Source: a virus
DNA: 21,206 bases
Direction: 5' to 3' (one strand)
IMG/VR virus record: IMGVR_UViG_3300028879_000012
Coordinates: 1-21,206 of that record
The notes under the pieces: generated by a model
What the model saw: only the letters and a program-made list of their open reading frames with translations
The model's database searches: none
What the model was told of the DNA's origin: nothing
Translations under genes and position numbers: made by a program
In this document: one piece after another, positions 3,337 through 19,966 of the stretch
Numbering within the stretch: position 1 is the stretch's first letter
Layout: the number at the start of each line of letters is the position of its first letter

Positions 3337-4662
3337 TCAAGGCGCAAAGAAGGTGGCGTTCAAGTTGAACGTGATCGTCAGGAACCCGTTCTGCGTCACC
3401 AGCGTGGCCGACAGGCCGTTGTAGATACCCGCGGCGTAGTCGTCCGGGTTGGCGGCGGTGTAGTCGGCGAACGACACGGCGGAGACCACCACGCTATTGG
3501 CGCAGCCAAAGGCAACCGCGCTATTGCCCCGGTTCTGGGCAACGGCCTGCAGGTTGTTGATGCCGGCCTGGTCGTAGAGCAGCGGCGGATTGGTATTGGA
3601 GCCGTTGATGATCGCGGCGGCCAGATCCTGATGCGCGTTGATGCGGAACCAGTCCAGCCCGTACCATGCGGCCGACTGCTGGCCGTCCATCGTGGTGCCC
3701 TTGAAGACGCACGCCGTCGAGATGCCGCCTTCGGCACCGGTGATGATCAGGTTGCCGTAATCGGACAAAATGGCGTTGATCGTGGACTGGTTGCCCATCT
3801 GCGCCCATGGCGTGACGCCAAAGACGTAGCGGTACTGCATTGGCGCCAGCTGGTTCGACGCACTGGGGTTGTTAACCAGCCACTGGTAGAACAACGAGGC
3901 CATTTGCACTTCGGTGCTGGCCGCCGTCGGGCTATCCACCAGAGTGAACACGGACTTGTTCGGTCCATAGACGGAAAGATTCGCCGCCGTCGTAGTGACG
4001 AAGAAGTACGTCTGCCCTGAGGGACTGGCGTATTCAGCCGCCAGCGTATTCAGACCCGCAGCGTCCGCCGCATCCCACGACTTCGGCACAAGATAGCTGT
4101 AGAACTGCTGCGGCGAACTGTTGGCCGTCAGCCACGTCTGCAGCGCGGCAACTGCGGCGGTATTGGTCAGGACCGGGCCCAGTTCCAAAACATAGAAGCC
4201 GACCGTCTGACCTTGAGCAGCGAACGTGGTCGCGACATCGGTCAGGAAGGCCGAGCTCGGCGGGGTATAGGTACCGGGAGACGTTTCCGAGCCGGGGTTG
4301 CTGGTCAGTGTGAAAGTAAACGTGTCGGCACCGGTGACGGTCGCCAGATAGGTGCCGTTGTATGCGGCAGGCACGGCGCCGGCAATGGTGGTCGAAAAGG
4401 TCTCACCGGTGGTGAACTCAACCGCCGCCACGGCGGTTGCCGTCACGGTGCCGGATGCCCATGCCAGAGAGGCCAAGGCCAAGGGCGCCACCAGGATGGA
4501 TGTCAGATCGGAAGGCGTACCCACGTACTGCCAGTGACCGGCTGCAAGGGTAGTGCCTCCCGTAGAAACGGCCGCGCCACTCCGCTGAAGCTGAGACGGC
4601 ACAGGCGCTCGCGTCACGGTCGTATTGATCGTGACGATGGTCGGTGTAATGGACTGCGCCAT
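3337..4662 (-). CDS. Contractile tail sheath protein (DUF3383-like)
   Basis: The product forms the contractile outer tail sheath of a myovirus. I chose the ATG at 4662, which has a CAGGAG ribosome site eight bases upstream and gives 441 residues beginning Met-Ala-Gln-Ser-Ile-Thr-Pro; the frame extends upstream to 4743 but that part is Arg-rich and overlaps the previous gene. Features typical of the DUF3383 family are visible: an N-terminal extended arm, a middle region with Tyr-Phe-Phe-Val-Thr-Thr, the Trp-Tyr-Gly-Leu-Asp-Trp-Phe-Arg-Ile-Asn segment (about 290-300 residues in), and a C-terminal strand ending Phe-Asn-Leu-Asn-Ala-Thr-Phe-Phe-Ala-Pro. Residues about 66-134 form an inserted Thr/Ala/Gly-rich beta domain that also occurs in the neck protein at 6378-7055. 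It is followed at once by the tail tube gene. Confidence 0.88.
   Translation of the reverse strand: MAQSITPTIVTINTTVTRAPVPSQLQRSGAAVSTGGTTLAAGHWQYVGTPSDLTSILVAPLALASLAWASGTVTATAVAAVEFTTGETFSTTIAGAVPAAYNGTYLATVTGADTFTFTLTSNPGSETSPGTYTPPSSAFLTDVATTFAAQGQTVGFYVLELGPVLTNTAAVAALQTWLTANSSPQQFYSYLVPKSWDAADAAGLNTLAAEYASPSGQTYFFVTTTAANLSVYGPNKSVFTLVDSPTAASTEVQMASLFYQWLVNNPSASNQLAPMQYRYVFGVTPWAQMGNQSTINAILSDYGNLIITGAEGGISTACVFKGTTMDGQQSAAWYGLDWFRINAHQDLAAAIINGSNTNPPLLYDQAGINNLQAVAQNRGNSAVAFGCANSVVVSAVSFADYTAANPDDYAAGIYNGLSATLVTQNGFLTITFNLNATFFAP
4261..4467 (-). repeat. Inserted beta-type domain, copy in tail sheath
   Basis: This stretch encodes residues about 66-134 of the sheath. It opens with Leu-Ala-Trp-Ala-Ser-Gly and contains Ala-Val-Pro-Ala-Ala-Tyr-Asn-Gly-Thr, Thr-Phe-Thr-Phe-Thr-Leu and Asn-Pro-Gly. 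The same order of motifs occurs in the neck protein copy at 6600-6806. Alternating polar and hydrophobic residues suggest a small Ig-like beta sandwich exposed on the virion. Confidence 0.7.
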
Positions 4663-4679
4663 GTGGGCGGCTCCTGTGA

Positions 4680-4973
4680 TTACGAGTAAGCGACCGCGAG
4701 AACCTGGGCGGCTCCGGGGACGACGACGATGCCGACAGCGCATGGCAGCGTGAAGCTGTACGGGCCGATCGCTTCGGGAATGCTGCCGATGAGATTGGCC
4801 GCACTTACGGCACCGGTGGTGGCGCAGTCATGGATGCTTCCGACGCCGGTACCGAGCACGCTGTTGTTGACAGTGAACACGGTGCCGGGCAGCGCTTTGA
4901 CGACGGTCGCCGCGGTGATGTTGAGAACGGTGGAATTACCACCGGCGCGCGGAGTAAGGGGATTCTGAGGCAT
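4680..4973 (-). CDS. Small structural protein upstream of the sheath
   Basis: This 97-residue product is nearly free of charged residues and rich in Val, Ala, Gly, Thr and Ser, with several predicted beta strands; it lacks a signal peptide. Such composition is common in phage decoration or fibre-base proteins. It sits between a 318-residue neck-region protein and the tail sheath, with an AGGAG ribosome site before its ATG. It begins Met-Pro-Gln-Asn-Pro-Leu-Thr-Pro-Arg. It is clearly within the structural operon, but I do not recognise the family and its location in the virion is unknown. Confidence 0.7.
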   Translation of the reverse strand: MPQNPLTPRAGGNSTVLNITAATVVKALPGTVFTVNNSVLGTGVGSIHDCATTGAVSAANLIGSIPEAIGPYSFTLPCAVGIVVVPGAAQVLAVAYS

Positions 4974-7607: not shown

Positions 7608-8636
7608 TCAGGCGTACTGGAAGTTCAGGATGAACAGGCCTTCTGGACGAAGGTTCCAGCCCGAGGTGCAACGCAGTTCGTAAACGTCAGTCACGCCGCC
7701 ATCGGGAATCGGCGTGGTGATCTTGCGTGGAGCTGGCATGTCGCAGTACATCGCGTTGACGTCGCGCATGGACGGCTGCAGATCGGCGAACTCGTTGGTG
7801 TTGATGTCCACGTTCTGCAGATTCTCGATCTCCGGAATCGTCAGCAGCAGCAGATCGGAACCGCCCGAGCCTTTGCCGATCAACGTGTCGTCGTAGTAGA
7901 TCTCGAAGCTGTTACCAGCCTCTTCGAGAACACTCTTGATCACGCCTCCAGTGGTTTCCGAACCGGCGCCCGGACGCTGGTACTGCACGACCTGCACGAT
8001 GTCGCTGAGCTGCCAGGCCAGGCCGACGCGCTGAGGGCAAACCAGAATCACCCGGTTGGAAATGCTCTTGCCGGACTGGAACATGTTTGCCTTGAGCTGC
8101 GCCACCTGTCCGAGCATGAACATCGCCATCTCGCCGTTGTCGTACGTCGACACGCTGTCGTTGCCGTAGCTGTCAGGTGGCAGCGTGACCTGCGTAGCAT
8201 TGCCCGAGTTGATCAGGCCTTCGCCGTTGGCCGGGTTGATGCCGTAGATCAGGCCCGTACGCATGGCCTGGAAGATGCCCTGACGGCCACCGAACTCCTG
8301 CGCCTTGGGCAGCGACACGTTCCACGTCGCCGCTTCCGCAATCGCGTGGTGATCGTAAATCGCTCGGGTACGAAACAGGTAGGTGGGCGTGCTGTACATC
8401 GATGGCACGAAGGTTGCACTCGGCAGCTGGTTGTACGAGGCCTGCGAAGCCTGCGCATCCGTGCGGATGTCCAGAGCGTGCACGTACACGTACTTGTCCA
8501 CTTCGCCCAGCTTGACCTTGGGGACACCGCGAGGAAGGACTTCGAACGCACCCGTGGGCTGCGCCCAGGTCAGGATGAGATCGGGTTCCGAGAAGCTCGG
8601 CGTGACTTTGGCTTGAGAAACAAAATAACCACTCAT
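7608..8636 (-). CDS. Major capsid protein (DUF2184-like)
   Basis: The 342-residue product has the size and pattern of the DUF2184 group of HK97-fold major capsid proteins: an N-terminal arm, a segment around residues 55-75 (Leu-Asp-Ile-Arg-Thr-Asp-Ala), a middle region rich in Gly, Asn and Ser (Gly-Leu-Ile-Tyr-Gly-Ile-Asn-Pro-Ala-Asn-Gly-Glu-Gly), and a C-terminal half with Leu-Pro-Pro-Asp-Ser-Tyr and Ile-Leu-Val-Cys-Pro. It begins after a strong AAGGAG ribosome site. Upstream are the fused protease/scaffold and the decoration gene, the expected order. There is no long N-terminal delta domain in this protein, consistent with a separately encoded scaffold. A hairpin with a UUCG loop follows the gene. 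Confidence 0.88.
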   Translation of the reverse strand: MSGYFVSQAKVTPSFSEPDLILTWAQPTGAFEVLPRGVPKVKLGEVDKYVYVHALDIRTDAQASQASYNQLPSATFVPSMYSTPTYLFRTRAIYDHHAIAEAATWNVSLPKAQEFGGRQGIFQAMRTGLIYGINPANGEGLINSGNATQVTLPPDSYGNDSVSTYDNGEMAMFMLGQVAQLKANMFQSGKSISNRVILVCPQRVGLAWQLSDIVQVVQYQRPGAGSETTGGVIKSVLEEAGNSFEIYYDDTLIGKGSGGSDLLLLTIPEIENLQNVDINTNEFADLQPSMRDVNAMYCDMPAPRKITTPIPDGGVTDVYELRCTSGWNLRPEGLFILNFQYA

Positions 8637-8648
8637 ATCGTCGGCTCC

Positions 8649-9254
8649 TTAAATCTGAATGACGGCGACAGCACCGGCGACCCAGGACACAACCCCGGTA
8701 CCGGCGTTGTAGCTGACGACTTTGCTGTTGGTGTTGACGGAAAGAACCTTGATACCGGCAAGGGTGATGGCGCCGGCCGTGCCGGATGCCGTGAGCTCCT
8801 GAAGCGCCGGGTCCCAGTACAAGGCCTGATTGATGTTGCCCGCCTCAATGGTGGCTACCTCAGCGGCCAATACGGCGACCTTGATGCGGGCGCCACTGCC
8901 CAGACGGAAGAACGTGGTGGTCTGCGTCGGTGCCAGCTGCGGAACAGTGTTGCCGGGCGTGACGATGGCATTGGACGACTGCGTGAATACCGTCCAGCCG
9001 GTCAGGTTGCCGACCGCCGTGGCGATCGTGATGGTGGTGCCGAGACTGGCCTCGCCATTCGTAGCAACCGATTCAGTGATGGCGATACCGCCATAGATAG
9101 GCTGGGCCACCGATGCGCCGATCTTGCCGGAAGCAAGCTCCATGCGGGTCGACGGATCATCGACAAAGTCACCCTGGTAGTAGCCCTGGGTGCTGACATC
9201 GAACGTTCCATAGGGAGACGTGGTCAGCTGCGGGTTGAAGGTAATGCCGGCCAT
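8649..9254 (-). CDS. Head decoration/structural cement-like protein
   Basis: A 201-residue protein whose ATG overlaps the scaffold stop as TAATG. It begins Met-Ala-Gly-Ile-Thr-Phe-Asn-Pro and is almost entirely beta-prone, rich in Thr, Ala, Val and Gly. Residues about 120-135 (Ala-Arg-Ile-Lys-Val-Ala-Val-Leu-Ala-Ala-Glu) and the C-terminal Val-Val-Ser-Trp-Val-Ala-Gly resemble the cement proteins encoded just before the capsid gene in DUF2184-capsid phages. It would bind the outer capsid surface after expansion. The role is inferred from composition and position; the family match is by eye. Confidence 0.72.
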   Translation of the reverse strand: MAGITFNPQLTTSPYGTFDVSTQGYYQGDFVDDPSTRMELASGKIGASVAQPIYGGIAITESVATNGEASLGTTITIATAVGNLTGWTVFTQSSNAIVTPGNTVPQLAPTQTTTFFRLGSGARIKVAVLAAEVATIEAGNINQALYWDPALQELTASGTAGAITLAGIKVLSVNTNSKVVSYNAGTGVVSWVAGAVAVIQI

Positions 9255-10099
9255 TAGTTAGCTCCCTTATTCACGTCGCGGTTGATTCGGGCGACGTAGC
9301 CGGGGGCTTTGAAAGAAGCCATCCAGCCATTCGGGTCGCCGGTATAGGTGGTAATGGGCCGACCGGTGGACATGTCGGTGTGCGCCATCAGGCGACCGGC
9401 AGGCTGGCTTGCAGGGCTGCGTGCGGCTACCGCGGCATCGGCGTAGATCTGACCTTCGATGATCGCGAACGACGGCGCATCCAGTGAGTCCAGACGAACG
9501 TCCTTGGCGGACTCGCTGTGCTTCTGGAACTTCGCCGCCAGACGCTTGCGATAGCCGATCGGGCTTTCGTCATACAGCGGGGCGCTGACGCTGTCACCGA
9601 ACATCTGGGCGACGCTGTCGGCACGCAGCTGCGCACGGCTCAGCGCGTCACGGTCTTCATTCGTCCGCGGCTTGGTGAGGCTGGCAACGCTATTGCGTAC
9701 CTGTTCGAGATCGGCGCGCAGCTTGGCATTGTCGGCACGCAAAGCGGAGTCGGCACGTTCGGCCTTTTCCTCTTTCTCGCCCTCCTTCACCGCCTCCTTT
9801 TCGTCTTTTTCTTCCTTCTTGCCGTCTTTCTCGGCCTCTTCCTTGGAGTCCTTACGCTCGTCCTTGTCGGAGTCCTTGCGATCGGCCTTTTTCTCGCTTT
9901 TCTCGTCTTTCTCTTCGTCCTTTTTGGACTCGGAATCCTTACGATCCAGCATCTCGCCGTCGTCGTCCTTGCGAGCGTCTTTCTTCTCGTCCTTCTTGGC
10001 TTCCATCGCGTCCATACGGGCGCAAAGAGCATCAAATCGCTCGGTGGAATCCTTACGCATTGCGTCCGCCCAGGCCGGGGCCTGATCTTCAGTTGCCAT
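9254..10099 (-). CDS. Nested in-frame scaffold protein
   Basis: Inside the fusion gene an ATG at 10099 (codon 317) is preceded by AGAGGA about eight bases upstream. Translation from it would give a 281-residue scaffold protein (Met-Ala-Thr-Glu-Asp-Gln) lacking the Nudix and protease parts, exactly at the boundary where the charged scaffold region begins. This mirrors lambda, where Nu3 is translated from within the C protease gene, and would supply scaffold in excess over protease. The good ribosome site and the match to the domain boundary are seen in the sequence; use of the start is inference. Confidence 0.6.
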   Translation of the reverse strand: MATEDQAPAWADAMRKDSTERFDALCARMDAMEAKKDEKKDARKDDDGEMLDRKDSESKKDEEKDEKSEKKADRKDSDKDERKDSKEEAEKDGKKEEKDEKEAVKEGEKEEKAERADSALRADNAKLRADLEQVRNSVASLTKPRTNEDRDALSRAQLRADSVAQMFGDSVSAPLYDESPIGYRKRLAAKFQKHSESAKDVRLDSLDAPSFAIIEGQIYADAAVAARSPASQPAGRLMAHTDMSTGRPITTYTGDPNGWMASFKAPGYVARINRDVNKGAN

Positions 10100-11047
10100 G
10101 TTTGTATCCTCTTGAATGTTGACGCCGTTAGGCGCGCCGCCCTTGTCCCATACACCCGCTGGGCAAATCGCCAGATGGTCGAGATAGGACGGTTTACCTT
10201 CGATTAAAACCGTCTTCCCATCCTCTAAACGGATGGTTTCAGTTGAACCGGCGTCACGAAACACAACGGCCGGGCTTGTCGATATGTGCGAGGTCAGCAT
10301 CAGCTGCGCCGCGTCCGTATCAAACACTTTGGCGATGCCGCGAACCTCATCGCCCTGGATGTAGCACTGGATCATCGTGCCAATGGCACGGTCCCGATAT
10401 TCTTCGGTGTTGAGGATCGAATCTGGAGGATGCTCGAAGATCAGCGGCAACCCGTTGCATCTCTCCACATAGTCGTCGGTCAGAAACTCGGACACCGGCC
10501 GACTGACGTATTCATCCAGTGCGGATCGGAAACTGGTTCCCGTACCAGTCACCCGAAGATCGAACATCCAGATGTTTTCGTACTTCTGCGGACTCAGCAG
10601 CTCGTCGGCGCGTATCGCCTTGGCGATGTCGAGTTCATGCCCGGAGGCGAGCTCAATCGACCGCCTGACTTCGGGATGCGTGTTCGCCGGCAGATCGGAA
10701 GGATGAAACCAGCCCGCAGCCAGTGATTCGTCATCCAGCACCGGCTCGAATACCGGAACATCTTTGATGTAGCAGCTGAAACGAATGCCATCGGATAGCG
10801 AATTACGAAACGGCCACATCGGACCATCGGGAACCTGTCCGACTTCCTCTGTGCATTCTCGGATCGCGCAATCTTCGGGCGACTCGTCCGGCTCCTGATG
10901 TCCGCCAGGCTGGACCCACTGACCGTCGTCCTTGTTCTGGACGAGCAGGAACAGCGGGCCGCGGGAACGTAGCAGGATGCCGGCGCAAGCGATCGCATTA
11001 GCGTCGGCGAACTTCTCCCGATGCCTTGCTCGCGAACTGATGGACAT
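9254..11047 (-). CDS. Nudix hydrolase - DUF2213 prohead protease - scaffold fusion
   Basis: I chose the ATG at 11047 (AGGAAG ribosome site six bases upstream) rather than the first ATG of the frame at 11092; this gives 597 residues. Residues about 15-135 are a Nudix domain with a near-perfect Nudix box at 49-70 (Gly49, Glu55, Arg63-Glu64, Glu67-Glu68, Gly70), which binds Mg2+ and hydrolyses nucleoside diphosphate compounds. Residues about 165-310 match the DUF2213 capsid-protease type, with His206 in Phe-Glu-His-Pro and Ser258 as candidate catalytic residues. Residues about 317-500 are an extremely charged Lys/Asp/Glu region with repeated Arg-Lys-Asp-Ser followed by coiled coil, like a scaffold. 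The last 80 residues form a compact tail. Protease and scaffold in one frame are common; the Nudix part at the front is unusual. Confidence 0.82.
   Translation of the reverse strand: MSISSRARHREKFADANAIACAGILLRSRGPLFLLVQNKDDGQWVQPGGHQEPDESPEDCAIRECTEEVGQVPDGPMWPFRNSLSDGIRFSCYIKDVPVFEPVLDDESLAAGWFHPSDLPANTHPEVRRSIELASGHELDIAKAIRADELLSPQKYENIWMFDLRVTGTGTSFRSALDEYVSRPVSEFLTDDYVERCNGLPLIFEHPPDSILNTEEYRDRAIGTMIQCYIQGDEVRGIAKVFDTDAAQLMLTSHISTSPAVVFRDAGSTETIRLEDGKTVLIEGKPSYLDHLAICPAGVWDKGGAPNGVNIQEDTNMATEDQAPAWADAMRKDSTERFDALCARMDAMEAKKDEKKDARKDDDGEMLDRKDSESKKDEEKDEKSEKKADRKDSDKDERKDSKEEAEKDGKKEEKDEKEAVKEGEKEEKAERADSALRADNAKLRADLEQVRNSVASLTKPRTNEDRDALSRAQLRADSVAQMFGDSVSAPLYDESPIGYRKRLAAKFQKHSESAKDVRLDSLDAPSFAIIEGQIYADAAVAARSPASQPAGRLMAHTDMSTGRPITTYTGDPNGWMASFKAPGYVARINRDVNKGAN
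9743..10003 (-). repeat. Low-complexity charged repeat (Lys/Asp/Glu) in the scaffold
   Basis: This part encodes roughly 85 residues that are almost only Lys, Asp, Glu, Ser and Arg. The motif Arg-Lys-Asp-Ser occurs three times here and once more just upstream at the scaffold start. The DNA shows the matching short repeats of TCCTT(G/A)CG on the plus strand. Such tracts are prone to length change by slippage. Confidence 0.7.
10097..10113 (-). promoter_or_regulatory. Internal ribosome binding site for the scaffold
   Basis: The coding strand reads AAGAGGAT, seven bases, then ATG. This is as strong as the sites before the separate head genes here and lies mid-gene, where coding needs alone would not require it. 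Confidence 0.55.
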
Positions 11048-11138
11048 CGGCACTTCCTGAATGGCATAGCGAAGCATCCGAGCCCAGCCCATCAGGCCGG
11101 TGCATAATCGGATTTCATTCGTATTGAGGGGACAATCA

Positions 11139-11504
11139 ATGAAACGTCTGGCGCTACTACTCGCGTTTCTGCCGGTTACAGCCTTGGCGCAAGACGATCA
11201 ACGCACGCAACTGCCGATACCGCCGAGCTGCAGCGTGCAGGAGGCGATTAACTACATGAACGCTCAACTGCCGCCGCTGCTCAACGAGCCTGAAACCGAG
11301 GCCGAACATATCGTCTCGATCAAGTCGTTCGCCGATCTACCGCGCACCAATGTGGAATGGCGAGATGCCACGCCAGGTCAGCACTACCAACTGAACTGCT
11401 CGATTGCAATCACCATGACCGGTGGGCAGGTGATCTATGGTCAGTTCAGGGCTCTAACGCAGGCTAACGGAACGATCACCGTAGGCTTCAAACCTTCGCG
11501 TTAA
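11139..11504 (+). CDS. Secreted protein, probable moron on the opposite strand
   Basis: This gene runs against the late operon, between the head morphogenesis gene and the protease fusion gene. I chose the ATG at 11139, which has an AGGGG ribosome site and begins with a clear Sec signal peptide: Met-Lys-Arg, a hydrophobic stretch (Leu-Ala-Leu-Leu-Leu-Ala-Phe-Leu-Pro-Val), then Ala-Leu-Ala before Gln-Asp-Asp. The 121-residue precursor would give a periplasmic protein of about 102 residues with two cysteines that could pair. An ATG at 11100 in frame is less likely because it would place residues before the signal peptide. Its stop overlaps the stop of the converging head gene by three bases. 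A single-gene insert with its own direction suggests a cargo gene possibly expressed in the lysogen. I do not recognise the family and no strong promoter is evident. Confidence 0.75.
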   Translation: MKRLALLLAFLPVTALAQDDQRTQLPIPPSCSVQEAINYMNAQLPPLLNEPETEAEHIVSIKSFADLPRTNVEWRDATPGQHYQLNCSIAITMTGGQVIYGQFRALTQANGTITVGFKPSR

Positions 11505-12313
11505 GCCGCAATCCGCACCGCATCCAGTGCAGTCTTTCCAGATACCGTCAGCATGTCGGCTGGAAGATCGCGCAGGTTGTAGATCCACACGTAGTAGCAC
11601 CGGCAGAAAACTTCTTCACCCGGCGCCGTCTGTTCGTCGGTGTAGCCAGCACCCTTGTTGATCAGGCCTTTGTCAGCTGCCCAGCTGCCGCGCACGGCGA
11701 ATACCTTGCCGTTGCGCTCCATATGGTCATGGCGGGCGTTGTACGTCTTGTCGACCGATCCATGGTCACGCCACTTGCCGGCGATCGCGCCACCTTCCTT
11801 GGCGATCACGTCACTGATCGAGGCGACCAGCTTGTGGCCCTGGTCGATGATGCAGCGGCGCTCTTCGTACTTCGCCTGACGCAGGGACTTCGCCACGTCT
11901 GTTTTCACCGTCACGCGATCCACCACGCGCGAGCCGCCATCCGGAATGGACGTGGCCCAACCCGAGAACCGCTGCAGCGTCTTGTCGATGGCCTGTTCGC
12001 GATTCAGTTTGATCAGGTCAGCACTCGCCAGAACGCGGCGCGTCAGTTCAGCGCGTAGTTCAGGCTTGATCCGCTCCACCGTGAACCGCGGAATCTCCCG
12101 GTGGGTGCGTTTGACCGCCGCTGGCGAGATGGCCCGCTTGTAGACCGACTCCAAGGCCTGCTTGGTACGCGACTCGATCACCTTTGGCGTCGGCATCTCG
12201 GCCTGTGCCGTTTCCCGCAACCGCTTCAGCCAATGTGTCAGGCGAAGCGGGTCGTCAAAACCTTCCAGCGTGAAGCTGTTCACCGCCGCGGTCAGGGCCT
12301 CGTTGAAAGTCAT
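11501..12313 (-). CDS. Head morphogenesis protein (SPP1 gp7/Mu gpF-like)
   Basis: The start overlaps the portal stop as ATGA. The 270-residue product has an N-terminal helical half and a C-terminal region with the features of the phage Mu F / SPP1 gp7 group: Asn-Ala-Arg-His-Asp-His-Met near residue 190, then a Pro-Gly-Glu-Glu-Val-Phe-Cys-Arg-Cys motif near residue 235 whose His and Cys residues may bind metal. Such minor head proteins associate with the portal and are ejected or remain inside the head. Gene order portal-MuF-protease/scaffold is standard. The stop overlaps the converging moron gene. Confidence 0.85.
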   Translation of the reverse strand: MTFNEALTAAVNSFTLEGFDDPLRLTHWLKRLRETAQAEMPTPKVIESRTKQALESVYKRAISPAAVKRTHREIPRFTVERIKPELRAELTRRVLASADLIKLNREQAIDKTLQRFSGWATSIPDGGSRVVDRVTVKTDVAKSLRQAKYEERRCIIDQGHKLVASISDVIAKEGGAIAGKWRDHGSVDKTYNARHDHMERNGKVFAVRGSWAADKGLINKGAGYTDEQTAPGEEVFCRCYYVWIYNLRDLPADMLTVSGKTALDAVRIAA

Positions 12314-13767
12314 TCGTGCGCACTCTCAACGATCGGCTCGCCAGGCTCTTTCACTGGGTCAGGCGTCGGTGGCTCGTAGTTTTCGATCAGCTCAAGGTCG
12401 AGATTCAGCGGCGTGTCTTTCAGCATTGGCTGACCGTTCGCCACATCGGACAACCAACCCGCGGCAGACGCGGCATTGACCGGATCGAGCCGCGGCAGCA
12501 ACACCTCGAACAGCGCGATCGCGGACTTCATCACGATGTCGGATGTCTTGAACTTCTCGCTGTCCGGCTCCGTCAGCAGGTTCGGCCATTCCGCCTTGAA
12601 CGCGTTGCTCCAGTCCACCAGCGCGGTTTCGTAGGGAACGGCTTTGTACTGCTCGGGAAACTTTCGCTGGATGGACGCGTAGAACTCAGGGTTCCAGGCG
12701 ATATGCCGAACGATCTTGTCGAAGAACCGATAGATCGAGTCCATCTCACGCCGGAAACCATCCACGAACGTGGCGATCGCCTTCGCGTCCTCTGAGCCCT
12801 CACCGAAGCCTTCCGCAAGGGTTTCGTCATTGAGCATCGAGGCCGGCATGGGAGCAGATGCAGCGATGTTCTTCAGGATGTTGTTCCGGGCGAACTCGGA
12901 GGCATCCTTGATGTTTTTCAGGTCCAGTGACTCGACGTTTTCCTCAGTGCCGATGGACAACACGTTGCCGGTTCGGCCGCCTTGCAGCATTCGACGTTTT
13001 ACCGCACCGAAGGTCAGGCTCAGGCGATCCAGCACCGACCCAGGCGAATGCATCTTGAAAACCAGCAAACCGGCTTTCTGGGTGATGAAGTCGTCCGTGA
13101 TCATGGACTGGATGTAGCTTTTCAGCGGGAACAGGGCGCGCTGGTAGACCGAGCGACCCACGAAGCCATACGCCGAACTGGTCCATTCGATGTAAATGGG
13201 CTGCTCGTTCATGATCACGCTGGCGCGGCTGGCGTGATACGACTTGCCAGCGACCGAGATACCGCGAGGCTTCAGGAAGGTCGGACTGTTCGGGTCCTGA
13301 TCCATCACCAGCGAGCCGGACGTGTTCAGCGGGTCCAGAACGTTGAAGCCCAGCTCCAGCTCATGCAGCCTGTCATACGGAAGCGGTTCGTTGGGATCGA
13401 GATCCTTCGCCAACGCCACGCATGACGCGATGCCGTAAACCCGGCTCAGCGTCACCGTTCTCTTGATCAGCTGATCGGCCCCTTCGCCTCCCAGCTTGTT
13501 CCATGCGACATTGAACGCTTCGATCAGCTCATCTTCCGGGCCACCGGGGATGGTGATCAGTCGCTTTTGACTCTGCGCGATGTCGATGGGCTTTTCAGCC
13601 ATCTTTGCGCCGAGCGGGTGATACGTGTAAAGCGTCTTGGCCGTCTGGTACGAGGGAGACGAGCCCGGAACGATGTCGTCGCATTCAAGCAGCGCCATGA
13701 GCGACGACGGAACGGATGAGCCAATGCGCAGAAAGGCCGACCCTCCCGAATCGTTTTCGTCACTCAT
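12310..13767 (-). CDS. Portal protein (DUF1073-like)
   Basis: This 485-residue protein follows TerL after a three-base gap. It has the pattern of the DUF1073 portal family: Tyr-His-Pro-Leu-Gly-Ala near residue 50, Arg-Val-Tyr-Gly-Ile-Ala-Ser near 110, a middle part with Arg-Ala-Ser-Val-Ile-Met-Asn and Gly-Phe-Val-Gly-Arg-Ser-Val-Tyr-Gln, and a helical stem region with Ala-Pro-Met-Pro-Ala-Ser-Met-Leu near 305. It would form the dodecameric ring at one vertex through which DNA is packed and ejected. Some members of this domain family are fused to the anti-CBASS nuclease Acb1; no such extra domain is present here. Confidence 0.87.
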   Translation of the reverse strand: MSDENDSGGSAFLRIGSSVPSSLMALLECDDIVPGSSPSYQTAKTLYTYHPLGAKMAEKPIDIAQSQKRLITIPGGPEDELIEAFNVAWNKLGGEGADQLIKRTVTLSRVYGIASCVALAKDLDPNEPLPYDRLHELELGFNVLDPLNTSGSLVMDQDPNSPTFLKPRGISVAGKSYHASRASVIMNEQPIYIEWTSSAYGFVGRSVYQRALFPLKSYIQSMITDDFITQKAGLLVFKMHSPGSVLDRLSLTFGAVKRRMLQGGRTGNVLSIGTEENVESLDLKNIKDASEFARNNILKNIAASAPMPASMLNDETLAEGFGEGSEDAKAIATFVDGFRREMDSIYRFFDKIVRHIAWNPEFYASIQRKFPEQYKAVPYETALVDWSNAFKAEWPNLLTEPDSEKFKTSDIVMKSAIALFEVLLPRLDPVNAASAAGWLSDVANGQPMLKDTPLNLDLELIENYEPPTPDPVKEPGEPIVESAHE

Positions 13768-13770
13768 GAA

Positions 13771-15048
13771 TCAATAGCCTTTGTGATCGCCGAGTGCGAT
13801 AGCGCACCCGTACGTAAAGCAGTCCAGAAGGTCGCGCGGTCCGTCTTTCTGGCCCATGCGGAAACCGCAGACCTGCGAGGTCATGTGGTTGCGCGTCTGG
13901 CCCTTGTAGTTGATGACTTTGTTCCACGCGTAATCGCTGGCTTTCACGAGCCCTTGGAACACGTAGCCCGACACCGACAAGCAGCGACCCTCTTTGCCCG
14001 CCGCCGTCATGGCTTCGGGGATAGGGCTGGCGTTCATGCCTGCGCGTCGCGCCTGCTGCAGCAACACAATGCCGCTGGCCTTGTCCTCGATCCACGCGCC
14101 CATGTTTCCCTGACGTGCTTTCGTCAGAACCGCCAGTTCTTCGAGCCGCATGTTGACGCTGGGCAACCAGTTCATCAGCAAAGAACCTTCGATCTGAAGA
14201 ATCTCCCAATCCAGGATGACCAGTGGGGTGCCGTGAAACTTGTTGCGGGCGTAGTAGATGACCGCCGTACCGTCGTGCTCGATGCCATCCTTGAGCGCGG
14301 TATCGATGATCGCAAAGACCTGATCGCACCGTTCCGGGTAGGGAACAGGATGACCGTCTTGCAGCAACGAGTCCTCAGAGAAGAACGCTGAACCTTTCCA
14401 GTCGACGAACTCCGCCAGGTATTCCTGCTGGTAGACCAGCGGCGGGTATTCGTCTTTCAGCTTTTCCACCACCTCAGGATCGAGATGCGGGTTCGCCGAC
14501 GTCGGAGCATGCACTTCATGCCAACCCTCAGCAGGATTGGTGCAGGCCTCATAGAAATAGTTGTCTTGGTCGATACCCTTGGGGGTACCGGCCATGATGA
14601 TGTTGCCGTTGTAGTCCAGCAGCGTGGGCCGTATGGACTGGTCGATGATCTCTTTCAGCCCCTTGGACTTGAGGCTGGCTTCGTCAACGATAACGGTGTG
14701 GTACTTGCGGGATCGGCCCGCGTTCTCATCTTCCAGCGTCCAGAACTCGATCAGCCCGCCCGTGGTTAGCTGGATCAGCTGGTCAATCTTGGACTTCGAC
14801 TGAATGATCGGCTTCAGGGTGTGAATCAGGTTCCCGTAAGTCGGTGCGTTGAGCTTGTACTTCGGGCCAAGCCAGCCGACACGCTTTCCAGTGAAGGCTA
14901 GCTTTGCTGCACATCGCTCCAACAGCGCTGTCTTGCCGAAGCGTCGACCGCAACGGATGACGACCTTCTTGTGCTCCTGAAACAACCGCGCGATTTCGAC
15001 CTGCTTGGTGTGCAGCTTCTGCAGCTCGACCGAACCACGCCTACTCAT
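13771..15048 (-). CDS. terL: Terminase large subunit
   Basis: The packaging motor and nuclease, 425 residues, with a start overlapping the TerS stop as ATGA. The ATPase part has a Walker A motif Gly-Arg-Arg-Phe-Gly-Lys-Thr (34-40), Walker B Val-Ile-Val-Asp-Glu (119-123, with Asp122 and catalytic Glu123) and a coupling motif Ala-Gly-Thr-Pro (153-156). The nuclease part has Ile-Ile-Asp-Thr (Asp249) as first acidic residue, Trp-Ile-Glu-Asp-Lys in the middle and Asp-Leu-Leu-Asp-Cys near the end. Length is normal for a TerL. The packaging type (cos or pac) cannot be told from this sequence. Confidence 0.93.
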   Translation of the reverse strand: MSRRGSVELQKLHTKQVEIARLFQEHKKVVIRCGRRFGKTALLERCAAKLAFTGKRVGWLGPKYKLNAPTYGNLIHTLKPIIQSKSKIDQLIQLTTGGLIEFWTLEDENAGRSRKYHTVIVDEASLKSKGLKEIIDQSIRPTLLDYNGNIIMAGTPKGIDQDNYFYEACTNPAEGWHEVHAPTSANPHLDPEVVEKLKDEYPPLVYQQEYLAEFVDWKGSAFFSEDSLLQDGHPVPYPERCDQVFAIIDTALKDGIEHDGTAVIYYARNKFHGTPLVILDWEILQIEGSLLMNWLPSVNMRLEELAVLTKARQGNMGAWIEDKASGIVLLQQARRAGMNASPIPEAMTAAGKEGRCLSVSGYVFQGLVKASDYAWNKVINYKGQTRNHMTSQVCGFRMGQKDGPRDLLDCFTYGCAIALGDHKGY

Positions 15049-15479
15049 ACGTCGGGATCGGGGTCAACGAGCGGTGGTTCGTCACCATCTCCCGTCTCTA
15101 CTCGATCCCGCCACTTAGCCGGCTGGCGATTCTTGAGCCAAAAGATCATGGACGTTGTATCAGGCGGGTAATGCTCGATCGTCTTGGCCCGAATGATCTG
15201 ACCCTGAAACTGAAACACTTTCTCTGACTTGTGGCTGTAGCCCATGGCGCGACGAAACAAGGACTTCTCAACCTGAGCGTCCACTTCTTCCTTGGTGCGT
15301 TTTAGGGCGTCCGAAAACTCAAAGTGCTTTAGCTTCCACAGCGCAACCGTGGACTCTGATACCTGGAAGAAATCAGCAATCTCCCGATCACCAGCACCCA
15401 ACCTAACAAGCTTTATCGCCTTACCGACAAACTCATCCTTGTACTTCGATGGGCGGCCACCCTTATTAGCGTCCGCCAT
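15045..15479 (-). CDS. terS: Terminase small subunit
   Basis: A 144-residue protein directly upstream of TerL. It begins Met-Ala-Asp-Ala-Asn-Lys-Gly-Gly-Arg-Pro-Ser-Lys-Tyr and has a helix-turn-helix at about residues 35-55 (Gly-Asp-Arg-Glu-Ile-Ala-Asp-Phe-Phe-Gln-Val-Ser-Glu-Ser-Thr-Val), as expected for a subunit that recognises the packaging site. The C-terminal half contains Phe-Trp-Leu-Lys-Asn-Arg-Gln-Pro-Ala-Lys-Trp-Arg, a signature of small terminases, and ends in a Pro/Asp tail. It would form a ring that hands the DNA to TerL. Confidence 0.9.
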   Translation of the reverse strand: MADANKGGRPSKYKDEFVGKAIKLVRLGAGDREIADFFQVSESTVALWKLKHFEFSDALKRTKEEVDAQVEKSLFRRAMGYSHKSEKVFQFQGQIIRAKTIEHYPPDTTSMIFWLKNRQPAKWRDRVETGDGDEPPLVDPDPDV

Positions 15480-15490
15480 ACATCAACCGA

Positions 15491-15634
15491 TCAAACGACC
15501 AAATGACGTTCCACAAGGAACGCCAGCGTAGCCAGCAACAGTCCCAGTGAAACGAGGTTGATCCGGCTCGATACGGGAATTGCTCCGAGAAGGAACACGA
15601 CCGCCGAGGCTATCCAGAGAATGAGCGAAAGCAT
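15491..15634 (-). CDS. 47-residue membrane protein at the end of the lysis cluster
   Basis: A short gene whose ATG overlaps the previous stop as TGATG, so it is well supported as a coupled cistron. The product has two hydrophobic segments, about residues 2-18 (Leu-Ile-Leu-Trp-Ile-Ala-Ser) and 26-40 (Leu-Val-Ser-Leu-Gly-Leu-Leu-Leu), joined by a short loop with Ser-Ser-Arg. Both length and topology are compatible with a small holin, pinholin or antiholin. It ends 11 bases before the terminase small subunit start. No family recognised. Confidence 0.65.
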   Translation of the reverse strand: MLSLILWIASAVVFLLGAIPVSSRINLVSLGLLLATLAFLVERHLVV

Positions 15635-15933
15635 CAGACTACGGCCGCAGCAGGAACGGCGGGCGTAACCGCAGCAGCGGCAGCGGCTGGGCTATGTGCA
15701 AACGCTACTGCACCCTCAATCAGCGGAGCAATCAGCTTCTCCAGCTCGGCGACCACGTTGGTGTCGGTTTCGAGCTTGGCGATGTATGCCTGAATCGCGG
15801 CAGTGACCGATGCCAGTTTGGCCGAGCCCACTGAGTCCGCCAGCAAGGTGTCAGCCTGGGAGACAAAAGCCGAGATGACCGGAAGCAGGGAGGGGATGAG
15901 CGCGAGGGCTTTGAGCAGGACAGCAAAGTTCAT
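15634..15933 (-). CDS. Small hydrophobic protein in the lysis cluster
   Basis: The open frame reaches back to a GTG at 16146, but the part before 15947 is overlapped by the Rz1-like gene. The ATG at 15933 has a GGAG ribosome site and lies just after the Rz1 stop, so I take it as the start, giving 99 residues. Residues about 3-24 are hydrophobic (Val-Leu-Leu-Lys-Ala-Leu-Ala-Leu-Ile-Pro), the middle is helical, and the end is an Ala/Pro/Val-rich tail. It may be a membrane-associated or holin-type protein. Function unknown. Confidence 0.65.
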   Translation of the reverse strand: MNFAVLLKALALIPSLLPVISAFVSQADTLLADSVGSAKLASVTAAIQAYIAKLETDTNVVAELEKLIAPLIEGAVAFAHSPAAAAAAVTPAVPAAAVV

Positions 15934-15946
15934 GGTGATCTCCGGT

Positions 15947-16258
15947 TTACTTGATGACACCATCGGCGCGATAGGCGTCGAGGCAAGAGGCGGTAGCGTT
16001 TCGCTTGATGGCGGCGTCTCGGTAGATACCGGCGACGGTGATGGCCCAGGCTGATTGCTCGGCACTGTAGGCACCAAGACTGGCTTGGTCGCTGACTTTG
16101 GGGCCCAGTGGATAAGCTGGTAGAACTTCGAAAGCAGTGCGTTCACCGCACATCACCGTTGGTGGCGTCGATGGCTTTGTTGACGTCGACGGACTGCACG
16201 CTTGCAGGCTGGTCACGATCATCAGCAAGACGATCAAGCGCAGATTGCGTTTCCACAT
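15947..16258 (-). CDS. Outer membrane spanin (Rz1-like lipoprotein)
   Basis: The ATG at 16258 lies inside the Rz-like gene in another frame, with an AGAGGA ribosome site eight bases upstream. The 103-residue product has a lipoprotein signal: Met-Trp-Lys-Arg, a hydrophobic stretch, then the lipobox Leu-Gln-Ala-Cys (Cys at residue 21). The mature part starts with a Ser/Thr/Pro-rich linker. Two further cysteines occur, in Met-Cys-Gly-Glu and Ser-Cys-Leu-Asp. Nesting of a small lipoprotein gene in the inner spanin gene is the classical Rz/Rz1 arrangement; the two proteins bridge the periplasm and fuse the membranes in the last lysis step. At about 80 mature residues it is longer than the lambda protein. 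Confidence 0.85.
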   Translation of the reverse strand: MWKRNLRLIVLLMIVTSLQACSPSTSTKPSTPPTVMCGERTAFEVLPAYPLGPKVSDQASLGAYSAEQSAWAITVAGIYRDAAIKRNATASCLDAYRADGVIK

Positions 16259-16430
16259 GGGCGGCGTCCTCTTGCTTGGTCGCGGTATCGCGGATGGTGT
16301 CGGCTTCGTGCAGTGACTTGTCGCGGGCAGCTTCTTGAGCGGCGGCCGCTTTCTTGGCGCTACGTCCATCTAGCCAGCCGGCAAGCCACCTGATGAGCGC
16401 GGCGGCTATGGCTTCGAGGATTGTCATCAT
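16143..16430 (-). CDS. Inner membrane spanin (Rz-like)
   Basis: The start overlaps the previous stop as ATGA (a second ATG follows at once). The 95-residue product has an N-terminal hydrophobic segment (about residues 3-20, Ile-Leu-Glu-Ala-Ile-Ala-Ala-Ala-Leu-Ile) and then a long charged, Ala-rich helix typical of the periplasmic coiled coil of an inner membrane spanin. The Rz1-like lipoprotein gene begins within it in another frame. The hydrophobic segment is short and contains Glu and Arg, so it is a weak membrane anchor by eye; the nested partner is the stronger evidence. Confidence 0.75.
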   Translation of the reverse strand: MMTILEAIAAALIRWLAGWLDGRSAKKAAAAQEAARDKSLHEADTIRDTATKQEDAAHVETQSALDRLADDRDQPASVQSVDVNKAIDATNGDVR

Positions 16431-16648
16431 CCGAGTGGACGTTTACGTCGGTCGAAATAAACATCAGCGACCAGAGCTCCCCACCGCGAATAAATCCACA
16501 GACGGCGCCCTGACGACGGCGCGTGTACCTGTAGCTTCACTAGACTTGCAGAGAACAGCCTCCACCAAGGCCAGTCTTGTGGACCATGCTTTGGCCGTAG
16601 TTCCGGACGCATGTGAGCAGCGGATCCATCAAAGTGAATTCTCATCAT
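16427..16648 (-). CDS. Small basic hypothetical protein in the lysis cluster
   Basis: A 73-residue protein coupled to both neighbours by ATGA overlaps. It is rich in Arg, Trp and His, with Pro-Gln-Asp-Trp-Pro-Trp-Trp in the middle and a basic end (Asp-Arg-Arg-Lys-Arg). There is no signal peptide or clear membrane helix, although the Trp-rich part could lie at a membrane surface. Not recognised. Confidence 0.55.
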   Translation of the reverse strand: MMRIHFDGSAAHMRPELRPKHGPQDWPWWRLFSASLVKLQVHAPSSGRRLWIYSRWGALVADVYFDRRKRPLG

Positions 16649-16863
16649 TTCTTGTCCGTGTATTTCAGCAGCAAATCGGCGTAACGCTCTTGGCAGTGCT
16701 GCAGCTCGTCTTCGTAGCGATTGCGCGTGGCAATGCCGCGATCAGCTTCGCCGCGCGTCACGTTGGACTGCATATAGCCGTAGCCGGTGCCGCCAAGACC
16801 GGCCAGCATCATTACGACCGCAAGCACATTGGGAACGCCGCGCTTATGCTCGATCTCGTTCAT
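16645..16863 (-). CDS. Small single-pass membrane protein
   Basis: A 72-residue product with one hydrophobic segment (about residues 11-30, Val-Leu-Ala-Val-Val-Met-Met-Leu-Ala-Gly) followed by a charged helix of about 40 residues ending in Lys-Lys. The start overlaps the previous stop as ATGA. This topology resembles an inner membrane spanin, but it has no nested lipoprotein gene, and the later pair at 15947-16430 fits better. It may be a second spanin-like or a holin-regulating protein. Confidence 0.6.
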   Translation of the reverse strand: MNEIEHKRGVPNVLAVVMMLAGLGGTGYGYMQSNVTRGEADRGIATRNRYEDELQHCQERYADLLLKYTDKK

Positions 16864-17186
16864 GGCGTCGGTGTCGCTGGCTGAGCGGCTGGGGTGGATT
16901 CGGTGGTGATCTTGCCGGGTATTACAGTTGTCGAGGTTGTTACCGGTGGCGTGCTGGTAGAAAGCAACTGCGCTTGGTGATCTGAGCTGGCACTACTGCC
17001 GAAGAAATAAGCCACGACAGCACCAGCTAAGCCATTCCATGCCGTCAGGATCATCACCACGACGTTTGCCGTATCAGTCGTACGCGGCAGACCGTTCTGC
17101 ATGATGTAGTAGTCAAGAAAACCGGCACCCATAACCACCATCACCGCCAGAATTGACGATGTGATGCCGCGGTGGGTGCCTTGCAT
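16860..17186 (-). CDS. Putative holin (two membrane segments)
   Basis: The previous stop overlaps either GTG at 17189 or ATG at 17186 (TGATG); I use the ATG. The 108-residue product has two hydrophobic segments, about residues 9-28 (Ile-Leu-Ala-Val-Met-Val-Val-Met) and 41-62 (ending Val-Val-Ala-Tyr-Phe-Phe-Gly-Ser-Ser), then a Thr/Pro/Ser-rich tail. The Ala-Tyr-Phe-Phe-Gly-Ser-Ser ending after a membrane helix is familiar from small phage holin-like proteins. It lies close to the endolysin gene, which has no signal peptide and so needs a holin. Best holin candidate here, but not proven. Confidence 0.65.
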   Translation of the reverse strand: MQGTHRGITSSILAVMVVMGAGFLDYYIMQNGLPRTTDTANVVVMILTAWNGLAGAVVAYFFGSSASSDHQAQLLSTSTPPVTTSTTVIPGKITTESTPAAQPATPTP

Positions 17187-17485
17187 CACTTCGCCCCGGC
17201 GAGCGCGTGGATTTCCTCCATCGCCCAGTTGTAGATCGTGTTATCGAGGATCGTCACGCGCGTAATTCGCTTGCGATTGATCATCTTCACTTCGACCGAT
17301 GTGCTTTGCTGGATAGCCAGCAGGATGAAGCCGATCTTCTGCTTGACTGGATCGGGCTCTTTTAAAACCGTGATCGCGTCACTCGCCAGCCGGCGAACCA
17401 TGTCGAGAAGTTCAACGGTGGGCCGTTTGTCTCGCGAGTCGAGAGCGAAAACGATGCCCTGCATAGAGGTAAGGGCGCTCGTCAT
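17186..17485 (-). CDS. Hypothetical protein between endolysin and holin
   Basis: A 99-residue soluble protein joined to the endolysin gene by an ATGA overlap. It is predicted mostly helical (residues 20-60) with a beta segment Arg-Ile-Thr-Arg-Val-Thr-Ile-Leu near residue 75. It has no membrane segment or signal peptide. Co-location with lysis genes is the only clue to its role. Confidence 0.65.
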   Translation of the reverse strand: MTSALTSMQGIVFALDSRDKRPTVELLDMVRRLASDAITVLKEPDPVKQKIGFILLAIQQSTSVEVKMINRKRITRVTILDNTIYNWAMEEIHALAGAK

Positions 17486-17997
17486 GCCACCGATCCAGTC
17501 ACGTTCGCCAGTGACGTGATAGTTCCGCCTGCGTTGCGATAAACGTCGCGTAGACCGTCGAGCTGCTGCTCATGCTGTCCGTACCCGGCGCCAGGCAGCG
17601 AGGCCCAAAGATGCGCGATAAGCACAATCGCGGCATCGAAGTGACCCGCCAGAATCGACGGCAGCGCTTGGGCTTCCTTGATCTGCTGGATAGCCATCCT
17701 GTCCTGACTCACCGGCCCGAAGTCCGGCAGGTTGAGCATCGACTTGTAGGCCAGCCAGTTGCGGAACAGCTCCTGATACCGACCAGCAGCCGTGGAGTCA
17801 TACCGCGAGTTATACACGTTCGGGTGCGTCGCGTAGCTGGTGAACAGCTTGGGCTTCGTCGGCGTCGAACCCACCAGAACGTCATATCCATCGTCGCTGG
17901 CAATCAGCCCAGCGGCGCTTATCTCACTCCACGCAATGGTGTCGAGCAGCGCGCAGACGTTACGTCCGCCGGCTGCGTCTGGCGTGATGCGTGGCAT
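17482..17997 (-). CDS. Endolysin, lambda R-type lytic transglycosylase (GH104)
   Basis: The 171-residue product aligns by eye along its whole length with phage lambda endolysin R (158 residues): Leu-Leu-Asp-Thr-Ile-Ala-Trp-Ser-Glu (candidate catalytic Glu25, matching lambda Glu19), Gly-Tyr-Asp-Val-Leu-Val-Gly, Thr-Ala-Ala-Gly-Arg-Tyr-Gln, Pro-Val-Ser-Gln-Asp, Gln-Gln-Ile-Lys-Glu, and Ile-Trp-equivalent Leu-Trp-Ala-Ser-Leu-Pro-Gly-Ala-Gly-Tyr-Gly-Gln. It cleaves murein between MurNAc and GlcNAc, leaving 1,6-anhydro ends. No signal peptide or SAR segment is present, so release depends on a holin. It is the first large gene of the late operon. Confidence 0.93.
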   Translation of the reverse strand: MPRITPDAAGGRNVCALLDTIAWSEISAAGLIASDDGYDVLVGSTPTKPKLFTSYATHPNVYNSRYDSTAAGRYQELFRNWLAYKSMLNLPDFGPVSQDRMAIQQIKEAQALPSILAGHFDAAIVLIAHLWASLPGAGYGQHEQQLDGLRDVYRNAGGTITSLANVTGSVA

Positions 17998-18129
17998 AAA
18001 AGGTTTCCAGCCCGGTCAGCGGTCGGCTGATTGGGGTTTGTGCTTTTGGGCGATCAGTGGGCGAGGCGCGCTGGCGTCAGCACGACGTGAGCTATGGCGC
18101 GGTGGCCGGTGCTGGAAAGTGGTTGCGGA

Positions 18130-18216
18130 CTAGCCGCCTTTTGTTTCGCTGTCGATGAAGGCGGTGGTATCAATCCCGTTTCCGGTACCGCTGATGCAAT
18201 CGGTCGTGCCTTTCAT
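18130..18216 (-). CDS. Possible 28-residue leader peptide
   Basis: A short ORF with GGAGAG five bases before the ATG. It encodes a polar peptide starting Met-Lys-Gly-Thr-Thr-Asp-Cys-Ile and ending Lys-Gly-Gly, rich in Gly, Thr and Asp. No homologue recognised. The good ribosome site in otherwise empty sequence is the main support. Confidence 0.4.
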   Translation of the reverse strand: MKGTTDCISGTGNGIDTTAFIDSETKGG

Positions 18217-18320
18217 CGCACTCTCCAATAGGTTTGCTGCTGCCGGGTGCTTCTTTGCGAGCGTGGCTCAGGACTTCGCCGGCGTGGCGACTGTGCGAGC
18301 TAGCAGCAAATTCGGGCAAC

Positions 18321-18347
18321 AAAAAAGCCCGCGGTTAGGCAGGCTTT
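18321..18347 (-). terminator. Intrinsic terminator after the early/middle operon
   Basis: On the minus strand AAAGCCTGC, a 6-base loop, then GCGGGCTTT forms a 9-base stem (one G-U pair) running into six T. It lies about 58 bases after the GIY-YIG-like gene. Confidence 0.85.
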
Positions 18348-18404
18348 CTTACGAAGTGCCTTGTTTCGCTGGCAATTCTACTTGTCGCAAAAAATATCTG
18401 ACTT

Positions 18405-19811: not shown

Positions 19812-19966
19812 CCAGCCCTCCTCCGCTTAACTTCCCGCCGAAGCATCGCCAATTGCCTCTGTCGTGCCTTGACCACTGCCAGAGCTTCGGCAAGTGCCAC
19901 CTTTGCCGCCTCAACTACATCAGGCAGCGTCTGCATCGGTATCGACTCGTAGCCGGTGGGTTTCAT
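19808..19966 (-). CDS. 52-residue helical protein
   Basis: A short gene filling the gap between two others, coupled to both by ATGA overlaps. The product starts Met-Lys-Pro-Thr-Gly-Tyr and is then one long Ala/Val/Leu/Arg helix, ending very basic (Arg-Glu-Val-Lys-Arg-Arg-Arg-Ala-Gly). It could bind nucleic acid or form a coiled coil. Not recognised. Confidence 0.6.
   Translation of the reverse strand: MKPTGYESIPMQTLPDVVEAAKVALAEALAVVKARQRQLAMLRREVKRRRAG

Follow-up and report, generated by a model that had tools for sequence, protein, structure and literature searches.

Nudix hydrolase domains joined to proteins of the phage head have been described before. In the accessible text of a 2022 paper (PMC9503650, section 3.5.2), phage Nudix domains are reported as fusions to MuF, to the portal and to a capsid-processing serine peptidase, and are perhaps packaged in the head and injected. 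In this study, we analyzed a 21,206-base viral fragment (IMG/VR record IMGVR_UViG_3300028879_000012; the whole stretch is referred to below as the window) with a gene in which a Nudix domain, a predicted assemblin-like capsid protease and a charged scaffold region follow one another in a single reading frame. The encoded protein shares the architecture class and the proposed role of the published fusions, and both the fusion and the packaged-and-injected hypothesis were already known. What is added here, relative to the accessible parts of that paper, is a nested scaffold start, a candidate cut-site motif and the frequency with which a Nudix domain accompanies the protease. The nested start and the motif make the published idea directly predictive, in terms of fragment masses and copy numbers; the window alone is one more member of a known family.

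The fused form has also been catalogued without an assigned function as PHROG 6216, of which the window protein is a new member: residues 36-600 match positions 4-540 of the 545-position profile with E=7e-139. In the accessible portion of PMC8770471, DUF2213 with a NUDIX hydrolase domain (PF00293) is one of eight Pfam architectures, and DUF2213 is presented there as phage-associated, putatively essential and of unknown function rather than as a capsid protease. Polyvalent proteins, as presented in the available sections of PMC5512222, join effector domains to an always C-terminal assemblin-like peptidase, for which a role in protein processing during virion assembly is proposed. The members considered here differ in that they mostly carry one recognized enzyme and often have a scaffold after the peptidase. 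T4 gp21 (5jbl, 12% identity) and herpesvirus assemblin resemble the protease part in fold, and to our knowledge neither bears a Nudix domain. In phage lambda (gpC/Nu3), translation of the scaffold begins within the protease frame, as predicted here, whereas the lambda protease, as far as we know, belongs to another family and has no Nudix domain. Burkholderia phages Bcep1 and BcepNY3 are like the window in having a Nudix domain in the head operon, and in BcepNY3 a nested pair is annotated, gene 13 for the prohead protease and 13' for the scaffold. They are unlike it in that the Nudix domain forms the C-terminus of the portal and not the N-terminus of the protease. Nudix proteins of jumbo phages are covered in PMC7824862, the accessible part of which does not mention this fusion, and cut sites of the SPN3US prohead protease were mapped by mass spectrometry according to the accessible part of PMC10052503. 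A literature search in which subscription papers were mostly outside the scope recognized no further pertinent prior art, which is weak evidence, and Bcep781 with nudix gave no literature match.

For comparison we surveyed 105 loci, 80 of them viral (the best 80 of at least 579 matches) and 25 from bacterial genome records. The survey leans to near relatives and includes copies of the window's virus (L016) and of a 72% relative (L017, L018); dereplication at 90% left 80 rows. The features of the gene are as follows, with residue numbers here and throughout counted from the ATG at 11092.

9254..11047 (minus strand): Nudix-protease-scaffold gene, long form, from the ATG at 11047; the frame stays open to the ATG at 11092
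11055..11058 (minus strand): AGGA, likely ribosome-binding site of the long form, 7 nucleotides (nt) ahead of ATG 11047
10643..10993 (minus strand): Nudix domain, residues 34-150; Pfam NUDIX E=2e-13, fold Z up to 17.7 against solved Nudix enzymes
10838..10903 (minus strand): Nudix box, residues 64-85; core pattern kept in 88/92 survey-set domains
10121..10633 (minus strand): predicted assemblin-like capsid maturation protease, residues 154-324; DUF2213 18.9 bits, Z 10.2 to T4 gp21 5jbl, conserved His221, Ser273 and His306
9257..10120 (minus strand): charged scaffold region with seven [KR]xDS motifs (candidate cut sites) at residues 346, 384, 405, 413, 446, 490 and 533
10107..10111 (minus strand): GAGGA, ribosome-binding-site-like, 7 nt before the internal ATG
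9254..10099 (minus strand): predicted nested scaffold product from Met332 (ATG 10097-10099); internal start signal in 54/61 rows

Counted from the first ATG, the open frame (9254-11092, minus strand) encodes 612 amino acids. The likelier start is nevertheless the ATG at 11047 (Met16), which had been used in the first-pass annotation, a model's reading of the letters, because AGGA lies 7 nt before it, versus no ribosome-binding-like site found by eye in the 23 bases preceding ATG 11092. That annotation had proposed a Nudix domain, a capsid protease and a highly charged scaffold in one frame, and had named a stop or frame error between the first two as grounds for dropping the idea. The architecture, charged scaffold included, is borne out by the frame, the Pfam matches and the fold models, and the error was looked for and not found. 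The gene is identical on another contig (L002), and a stretch of a 46.8 kb record (L003) is identical to the window across 13,836 bases; both are other metagenome (IMG/VR) records, seemingly of the same virus and not of independent species. Since two further contigs hold an identical gene, an assembly fault is unlikely, and since the frame is likewise open in relatives, among them the 72% relative, found on two IMG/VR contigs, a frame error between Nudix and protease was rejected. DNA nearly identical to positions 8000-20000 of the window was not found in phage records.

The Nudix assignment is supported by sequence and by predicted fold. Residues 35-144 score 51 bits (E=2e-13) with the Pfam NUDIX profile, whose cut-off is 21.1. 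A model of residues 17-330, covering Nudix and protease and built on 52 sequences (the window and its loci), has a mean predicted local distance difference test score (pLDDT) of 90.1 and a predicted template modeling score of 0.86. Its Nudix part has the canonical Nudix fold (Z 17.7 over 118 aligned residues at 1.9 Å against 4dyw); together with the protease part, which when modeled alone resembles gp21 and the assemblins, this answers the structure prediction suggested in the first pass. With this two-domain model, Foldseek returned Nudix entries alone among the best 50 matches listed. A library of viral models returned DUF2213 and prohead protease entries, the best match being an uncultured phage protein labeled Nudix (320 columns, root-mean-square deviation 10.8). 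In NCBIfam every match fell far under the cut-offs.

The Nudix box had been called near-perfect. Its core is complete, G64-x5-E70-x7-R78-E79-x2-E82-E83-x-G85, but the textbook consensus also has two hydrophobic positions and both are off-type in the window (Cys80, Gln86), so that the description holds for the core only. The full core pattern is present in 88 of 92 Nudix domains of the survey set, which includes the window and its near-copies, and in 59 of 62 after dereplication; the RE-x2-EE motif is kept in 91 of the 92. Three of the four domains off the pattern have the last glycine alone changed, and in the fourth (L111) the last Glu of EE has become Lys. Between the window gene and its 72% relative, a single pair, the ratio of nonsynonymous to synonymous substitution rates (dN/dS) is 0.12 for Nudix (bootstrap 0.06-0.20), 0.07 for the protease (0.03-0.13), 0.25 for the scaffold (0.12-0.42) and 0.29 for the C-terminus. 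Because the core pattern is kept and dN/dS is low, the enzyme is probably active. By sequence, the nearest solved structures are the Ap6A hydrolase Ndx1 and diphosphoinositol phosphohydrolases; by fold they are spread over MutT, Ap4A and decapping enzymes. No substrate is claimed from these neighbors, which range over Ap4A/Ap6A hydrolases, MutT, NudC, Dcp2 and NrtR, nor do the results favor any one of the candidates of the first pass (alarmone, NAD, ADP-ribose, capped RNA).

The protease had first been named from the DUF2213 family pattern. This label is marginal, as Pfam DUF2213 (PF09979) matches residues 196-313 with 18.9 bits, under the curated cut-off of 22 and so short of formal membership, but the predicted fold supports a capsid protease. 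Modeled alone (pLDDT 91.0), this part aligns best with T4 gp21 5jbl (Z 10.2, 132 residues aligned, 3.1 Å, 12% identity) and next best with herpesvirus assemblins (Z up to 8.2). Foldseek gave nothing at E 0.001 or better (best 1.6e-3), and the first 44 matches were all gp21 or herpesvirus proteases. Across the 80 dereplicated rows, S273 is kept in all 80, H221 and S271 in 79 each and H306 in 78. Hardly any linker separates the two domains, since the Nudix match ends at about residue 150 and the protease runs from residue 154.

Just past the protease, a Shine-Dalgarno-like site followed by an ATG is present in 54 of 61 rows, compared with 80 of 819 other in-frame Met codons in the same proteins. 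These 61 are what remains of the 80 dereplicated rows when 17 with a scaffold below 120 residues and 2 without the end motif are left out. A Met lies within 45 residues in 60 of them, and the site is at least 4 bases long in 54 and at least 5 in 26. Among the seven rows lacking the signal, the Met itself is missing in one and such a site in the other six, and Val stands at the Met place in some. The conservation of this start right after the protease implies a separate scaffold product, in which case Nudix would be present only on the long form. The first-pass annotation made no mention of a nested start.

A short motif, [KR]xDS, is crowded in the scaffolds, with 212 occurrences in 18,317 residues (11.6 per 1000), and rare in the folded domains, with 4 in 7,945 Nudix residues (0.5 per 1000) and 2 in 13,333 protease residues (0.15 per 1000). 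Outside the folded domains of the N-terminal part there are 6 in 2,376 residues, and the Nudix-protease joints hold 3 in 405. This distribution makes [KR]xDS a candidate for the protease cut site. Over 61 scaffolds, the DS dipeptide was observed 296 times against 112 expected; by z it is the most over-represented of the dipeptides with at least 15 expected, and it exceeds expectation in 58 of the 61. K or R stands two positions before the D of DS in 204 cases; in a control using D without a following S, that position is K or R 501 times and D 356 times. All seven [KR]xDS of the window protein lie within the scaffold, and a DS motif was looked for and not found in its Nudix-protease joint. In seven loci a [KR]xDS lies within 12 residues of the protease start (L019, L031, L041, L060, L068, L076, L108), and only L060 and L068 among them have a Nudix domain, so that their joint carries the motif.

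The first-pass annotation considered the fusion unexpected, which is not borne out. It is the commonest form in the survey, with Nudix fused in 75 of 105 loci, a separate gene directly upstream in 9 and none in the stretch surveyed in 21; it is spanned by PHROG 6216 and, as far as the accessible text goes, was reported in 2022 (PMC9503650). Here "none" means no Nudix within up to about 4 kb upstream, and less at contig ends (0.8 kb for L104). With ten further rows added (115 loci) the counts are 83 fused, 9 separate and 23 none, and for the 80 dereplicated rows they are 57, 5 and 18. The first domain as a standard part of every such protease was rejected on the 21 loci lacking it. The concern that it might be a known non-Nudix part of all DUF2213 proteins, also raised in the first pass, is answered in the same way: it is a true Nudix domain and is missing in some relatives.

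Phage records give a similar picture. Fourteen match the protease part and 12 of them also match the adjoining Nudix part, which supplies the list of carrier phages that had been called for; several of the 14 are near-copies. Translation in one frame was confirmed in five phages (QDWS, PdC23, RothD, one Yersinia phage and Chronis), and in Rac-SA53 and pPE4 the protein begins at the domain border, without Nudix. The Nudix part by itself matches 30 phage records, the best 18 of which (near-copies included) all belong to head modules; Nudix goes with this protease in 12, with the portal in 5, and stands as a separate gene beside head genes in 1. The other 12 are six Streptomyces records, two RB43 records (NudE), Mx1, GR7B, NadM of phage OC and one unannotated phage. 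The Mx1 match (Myxococcus phage, L123:1271-5710) lies within a polyvalent-looking protein of 1479 residues. As to existing labels, the fusion gene is called "glycosyl transferase" in Yersinia vB_YenM phages (L013 and others) and the Nudix-less gene "TolA protein" in Rac-SA53 and pPE4 (L009, L015). The scaffold part of Chronis has a TolA match under the cut-off, and the label probably stems from the charged repeats of the scaffold.

On the protease tree of 80 rows, Nudix presence requires at least nine changes. The sister row of the window is L019, which is 81% identical and lacks Nudix; L004 (92% in the protease) has Nudix and was, like other rows at 90% or above, merged with the window during dereplication. 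Nudix identity tracks protease identity over 62 rows (Mantel r=0.69, with 0 of 999 permutations as high). The association of Nudix with this protease is old, with repeated loss, gain or replacement. The Nudix tree (70 rows, 135 columns) has long outgroup branches and weakly supported deep forks. In it the portal-fused pair stands next to the enterobacterial protease-fused clade, a position with 85% support in the Shimodaira-Hasegawa-like approximate likelihood ratio test that is not starred, and RB43 NudE falls among outliers on long branches. With the deep forks unresolved, placing the Nudix domain by tree was given up. The accessible text of PMC9503650 groups such domains with T4 NudE, which the present tree neither confirms nor excludes.

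Other domains are found at the same end of the protease. A PBECR1 nuclease domain precedes Nudix in L027 (39.7 bits, cut-off 27.6) and an ADP-ribosyltransferase domain precedes it in L038 (70.8 bits, cut-off 23.4), both of them effector-like. In L041:3701-4000 a ferritin-like (rubrerythrin/EncFtn-like) domain replaces Nudix ahead of the protease (32.5 bits, cut-off 22.8). These three came from nine survey N-termini that were tried, picked by eye out of forty. For the extra N-termini of L019, L022, L098, L071 and L073 and the Nudix-protease insert of L060, NUDIX was the only Pfam family above its cut-off, and for the L019 extension PHROG gave nothing but short matches. Burkholderia phage Bm1 has a separate Nudix gene between the head morphogenesis gene and the protease, three small genes ahead of the latter.

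Many of these proteases open with a short motif, SEKQHRAMEAAAHG-STLGIP-SVGEEFV, or variants of it. It occurs at the N-termini of L007, L004, L019, L021, L022, L024, L027, L028, L031, L033, L038, L089, L096 and L108, and further at L121:4001-4105 and L124:3001-3159. In Pseudomonas phage Amjad_SA it lies C-terminally in the product of a large gene that follows the large terminase, BUCT555 has it as a gene of 52 residues, and phiKZ-like phages carry it too (PHIKZ165.1); 67 phage records match it at E 0.01, and it may be a head-interior tag. The N-termini of L071, L073 and L074 have cysteine-rich stretches (CxxCxxF...C...WCxLF and similar) before Nudix or protease, in which we presume a resemblance to high-potential iron-sulfur proteins; no Pfam match to that family was found for L071 or L073.

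We lean, with slightly more than even confidence, towards the Nudix domain being head cargo that is carried by a minor long form of the protease, is likely ejected with the DNA and acts on a nucleoside diphosphate linked to another moiety (NDP-X). The gene would give two products, the long Nudix-protease-scaffold protein and the scaffold alone from Met332, the latter probably more abundant. The scaffold tail would recruit long forms to the prohead in limited numbers, with Nudix loaded at the copy number of the protease, and the protease would then cut the scaffold, most likely at [KR]-x-D-S. Because the joint in the window protein carries no [KR]xDS, Nudix should stay attached to the protease, and an intact Nudix-protease core would be left inside the head. 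The Nudix cargo, most likely ejected with the DNA, would hydrolyze NDP-X (an ADP-ribose or NAD derivative, a dinucleoside polyphosphate or similar) early in infection. The first-pass suggestion of the prohead interior as a place for the enzyme is plausible and is supported by the fusion, a covalent link of Nudix to a head component inside the late head operon. If the cargo reading is true, the host nucleotide signal that these phages encounter on entry would be evident from the substrate, and the protease N-terminus with the scaffold would be a natural route to load chosen enzymes into a phage head. A wider version, which we put forward tentatively and below an even chance, is that the protease offers an exchangeable dock for cargo at its N-terminus. 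Nudix, ADP-ribosyltransferase, RNase-like and ferritin-like domains would be swapped in, loaded through the nested-start scaffold at protease copy number and released or kept by [KR]xDS cuts, and head maturation would double as the delivery of enzymes that act on host nucleotides.

Several observations weigh against the cargo reading. Operon neighborhood is enough to explain the fusion without a cargo duty, and the domain is dispensable to the protease, since no Nudix lies in the stretch surveyed at 21 of 105 loci. The dN/dS ranges of Nudix and scaffold overlap, and the L111 box carries the change of E to K. As to the motif, K or R is common two positions before D even without a following S, the dipeptides AD, DA and EE are likewise in excess in the scaffolds, and the DS excess could come from composition or from coiled-coil helix caps; the capsid protein shows no DS motif among its first residues. 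The joint in L060 and L068 could be cut, and retention of Nudix on the protease need not hold generally. Virion proteomics of a carrier phage was not found in the literature, in an incomplete search that is weak evidence of absence.

The main alternative to ejected cargo is that Nudix acts in the infected cell before or during assembly, in late house-cleaning or decapping, on damaged nucleotides, dinucleoside polyphosphates or RNA 5' ends. The fusion would then be an accident of gene order giving co-expression and not delivery. The nearest structures fit such a role, both by sequence (Ndx1, diphosphoinositol phosphohydrolases) and by fold (MutT, Ap4A and decapping enzymes), and attachment is not required, as Nudix is a separate gene in 9 of the 105 loci and in Bm1. 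Yet the separate genes are still inside the head operon, and the Nudix of the Bcep phages sits at the C-terminus of a different head protein, the portal, which adjacency alone explains less well; we consider this alternative rather unlikely. The correlated identities of the two domains (Mantel r=0.69), which mostly evolved together, and the near absence of a linker would suit another role, in which Nudix serves the protease as a regulator or as a structural element, timing proteolysis by nucleotide or metal binding or positioning the protease in the prohead core. This appears quite improbable given that the active-site residues are kept beyond structural need, and that Nudix is missing in 18 of the 80 dereplicated rows, changes at least nine times on the protease tree and is lacking in the sister L019. 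It could also be a passenger without a lasting role, digested along with the scaffold and lost from the head, as its repeated loss or gain might suggest; in T4-type maturation, too, the core is digested. Against this, Nudix dN/dS is low in the one pair compared, catalytic residues are kept over deep divergence, and in the window protein neither the Nudix domain nor the joint contains the candidate cut motif; we hold this reading to be very improbable.

The setting of the gene is that of a head operon, which runs in the order small terminase subunit, large terminase subunit, portal, MuF-like protein, fusion, PHROG 6268 protein and major capsid protein.

15045..15479 (minus strand): terminase small subunit, PHROG 309
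13771..15048 (minus strand): terminase large subunit, by Pfam and PHROG
12310..13767 (minus strand): portal protein (Phage_portal_3), Pfam E=6e-16
11501..12313 (minus strand): MuF-like head morphogenesis protein, PHROG 324 E=1e-25; Pfam Phage_Mu_F just 13.9 bits, cut-off 29.6
8649..9254 (minus strand): head-region protein, PHROG 6268 match
7608..8636 (minus strand): probably the major capsid protein; matches PHROG 6671 and, weakly, PHROG 264 (major head protein)

A tail sheath gene at 3337-4743 (PHROG 205) points to a contractile tail. Between the MuF-like and fusion genes, a small frame on the opposite strand (11139-11504, plus strand) has a signal-peptide-like start, MKRLALLLAFLPVTALAQ, and matched nothing in Pfam or PHROG. 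In Shewanella phage QDWS the MuF-like and fusion genes are 1 base apart, which suggests that this frame was inserted later. A protein with a MUG113/T5orf172 domain (18405-18887, minus strand), presumably of GIY-YIG kinship, is encoded to the terminase side of the head genes and is possibly a homing endonuclease.

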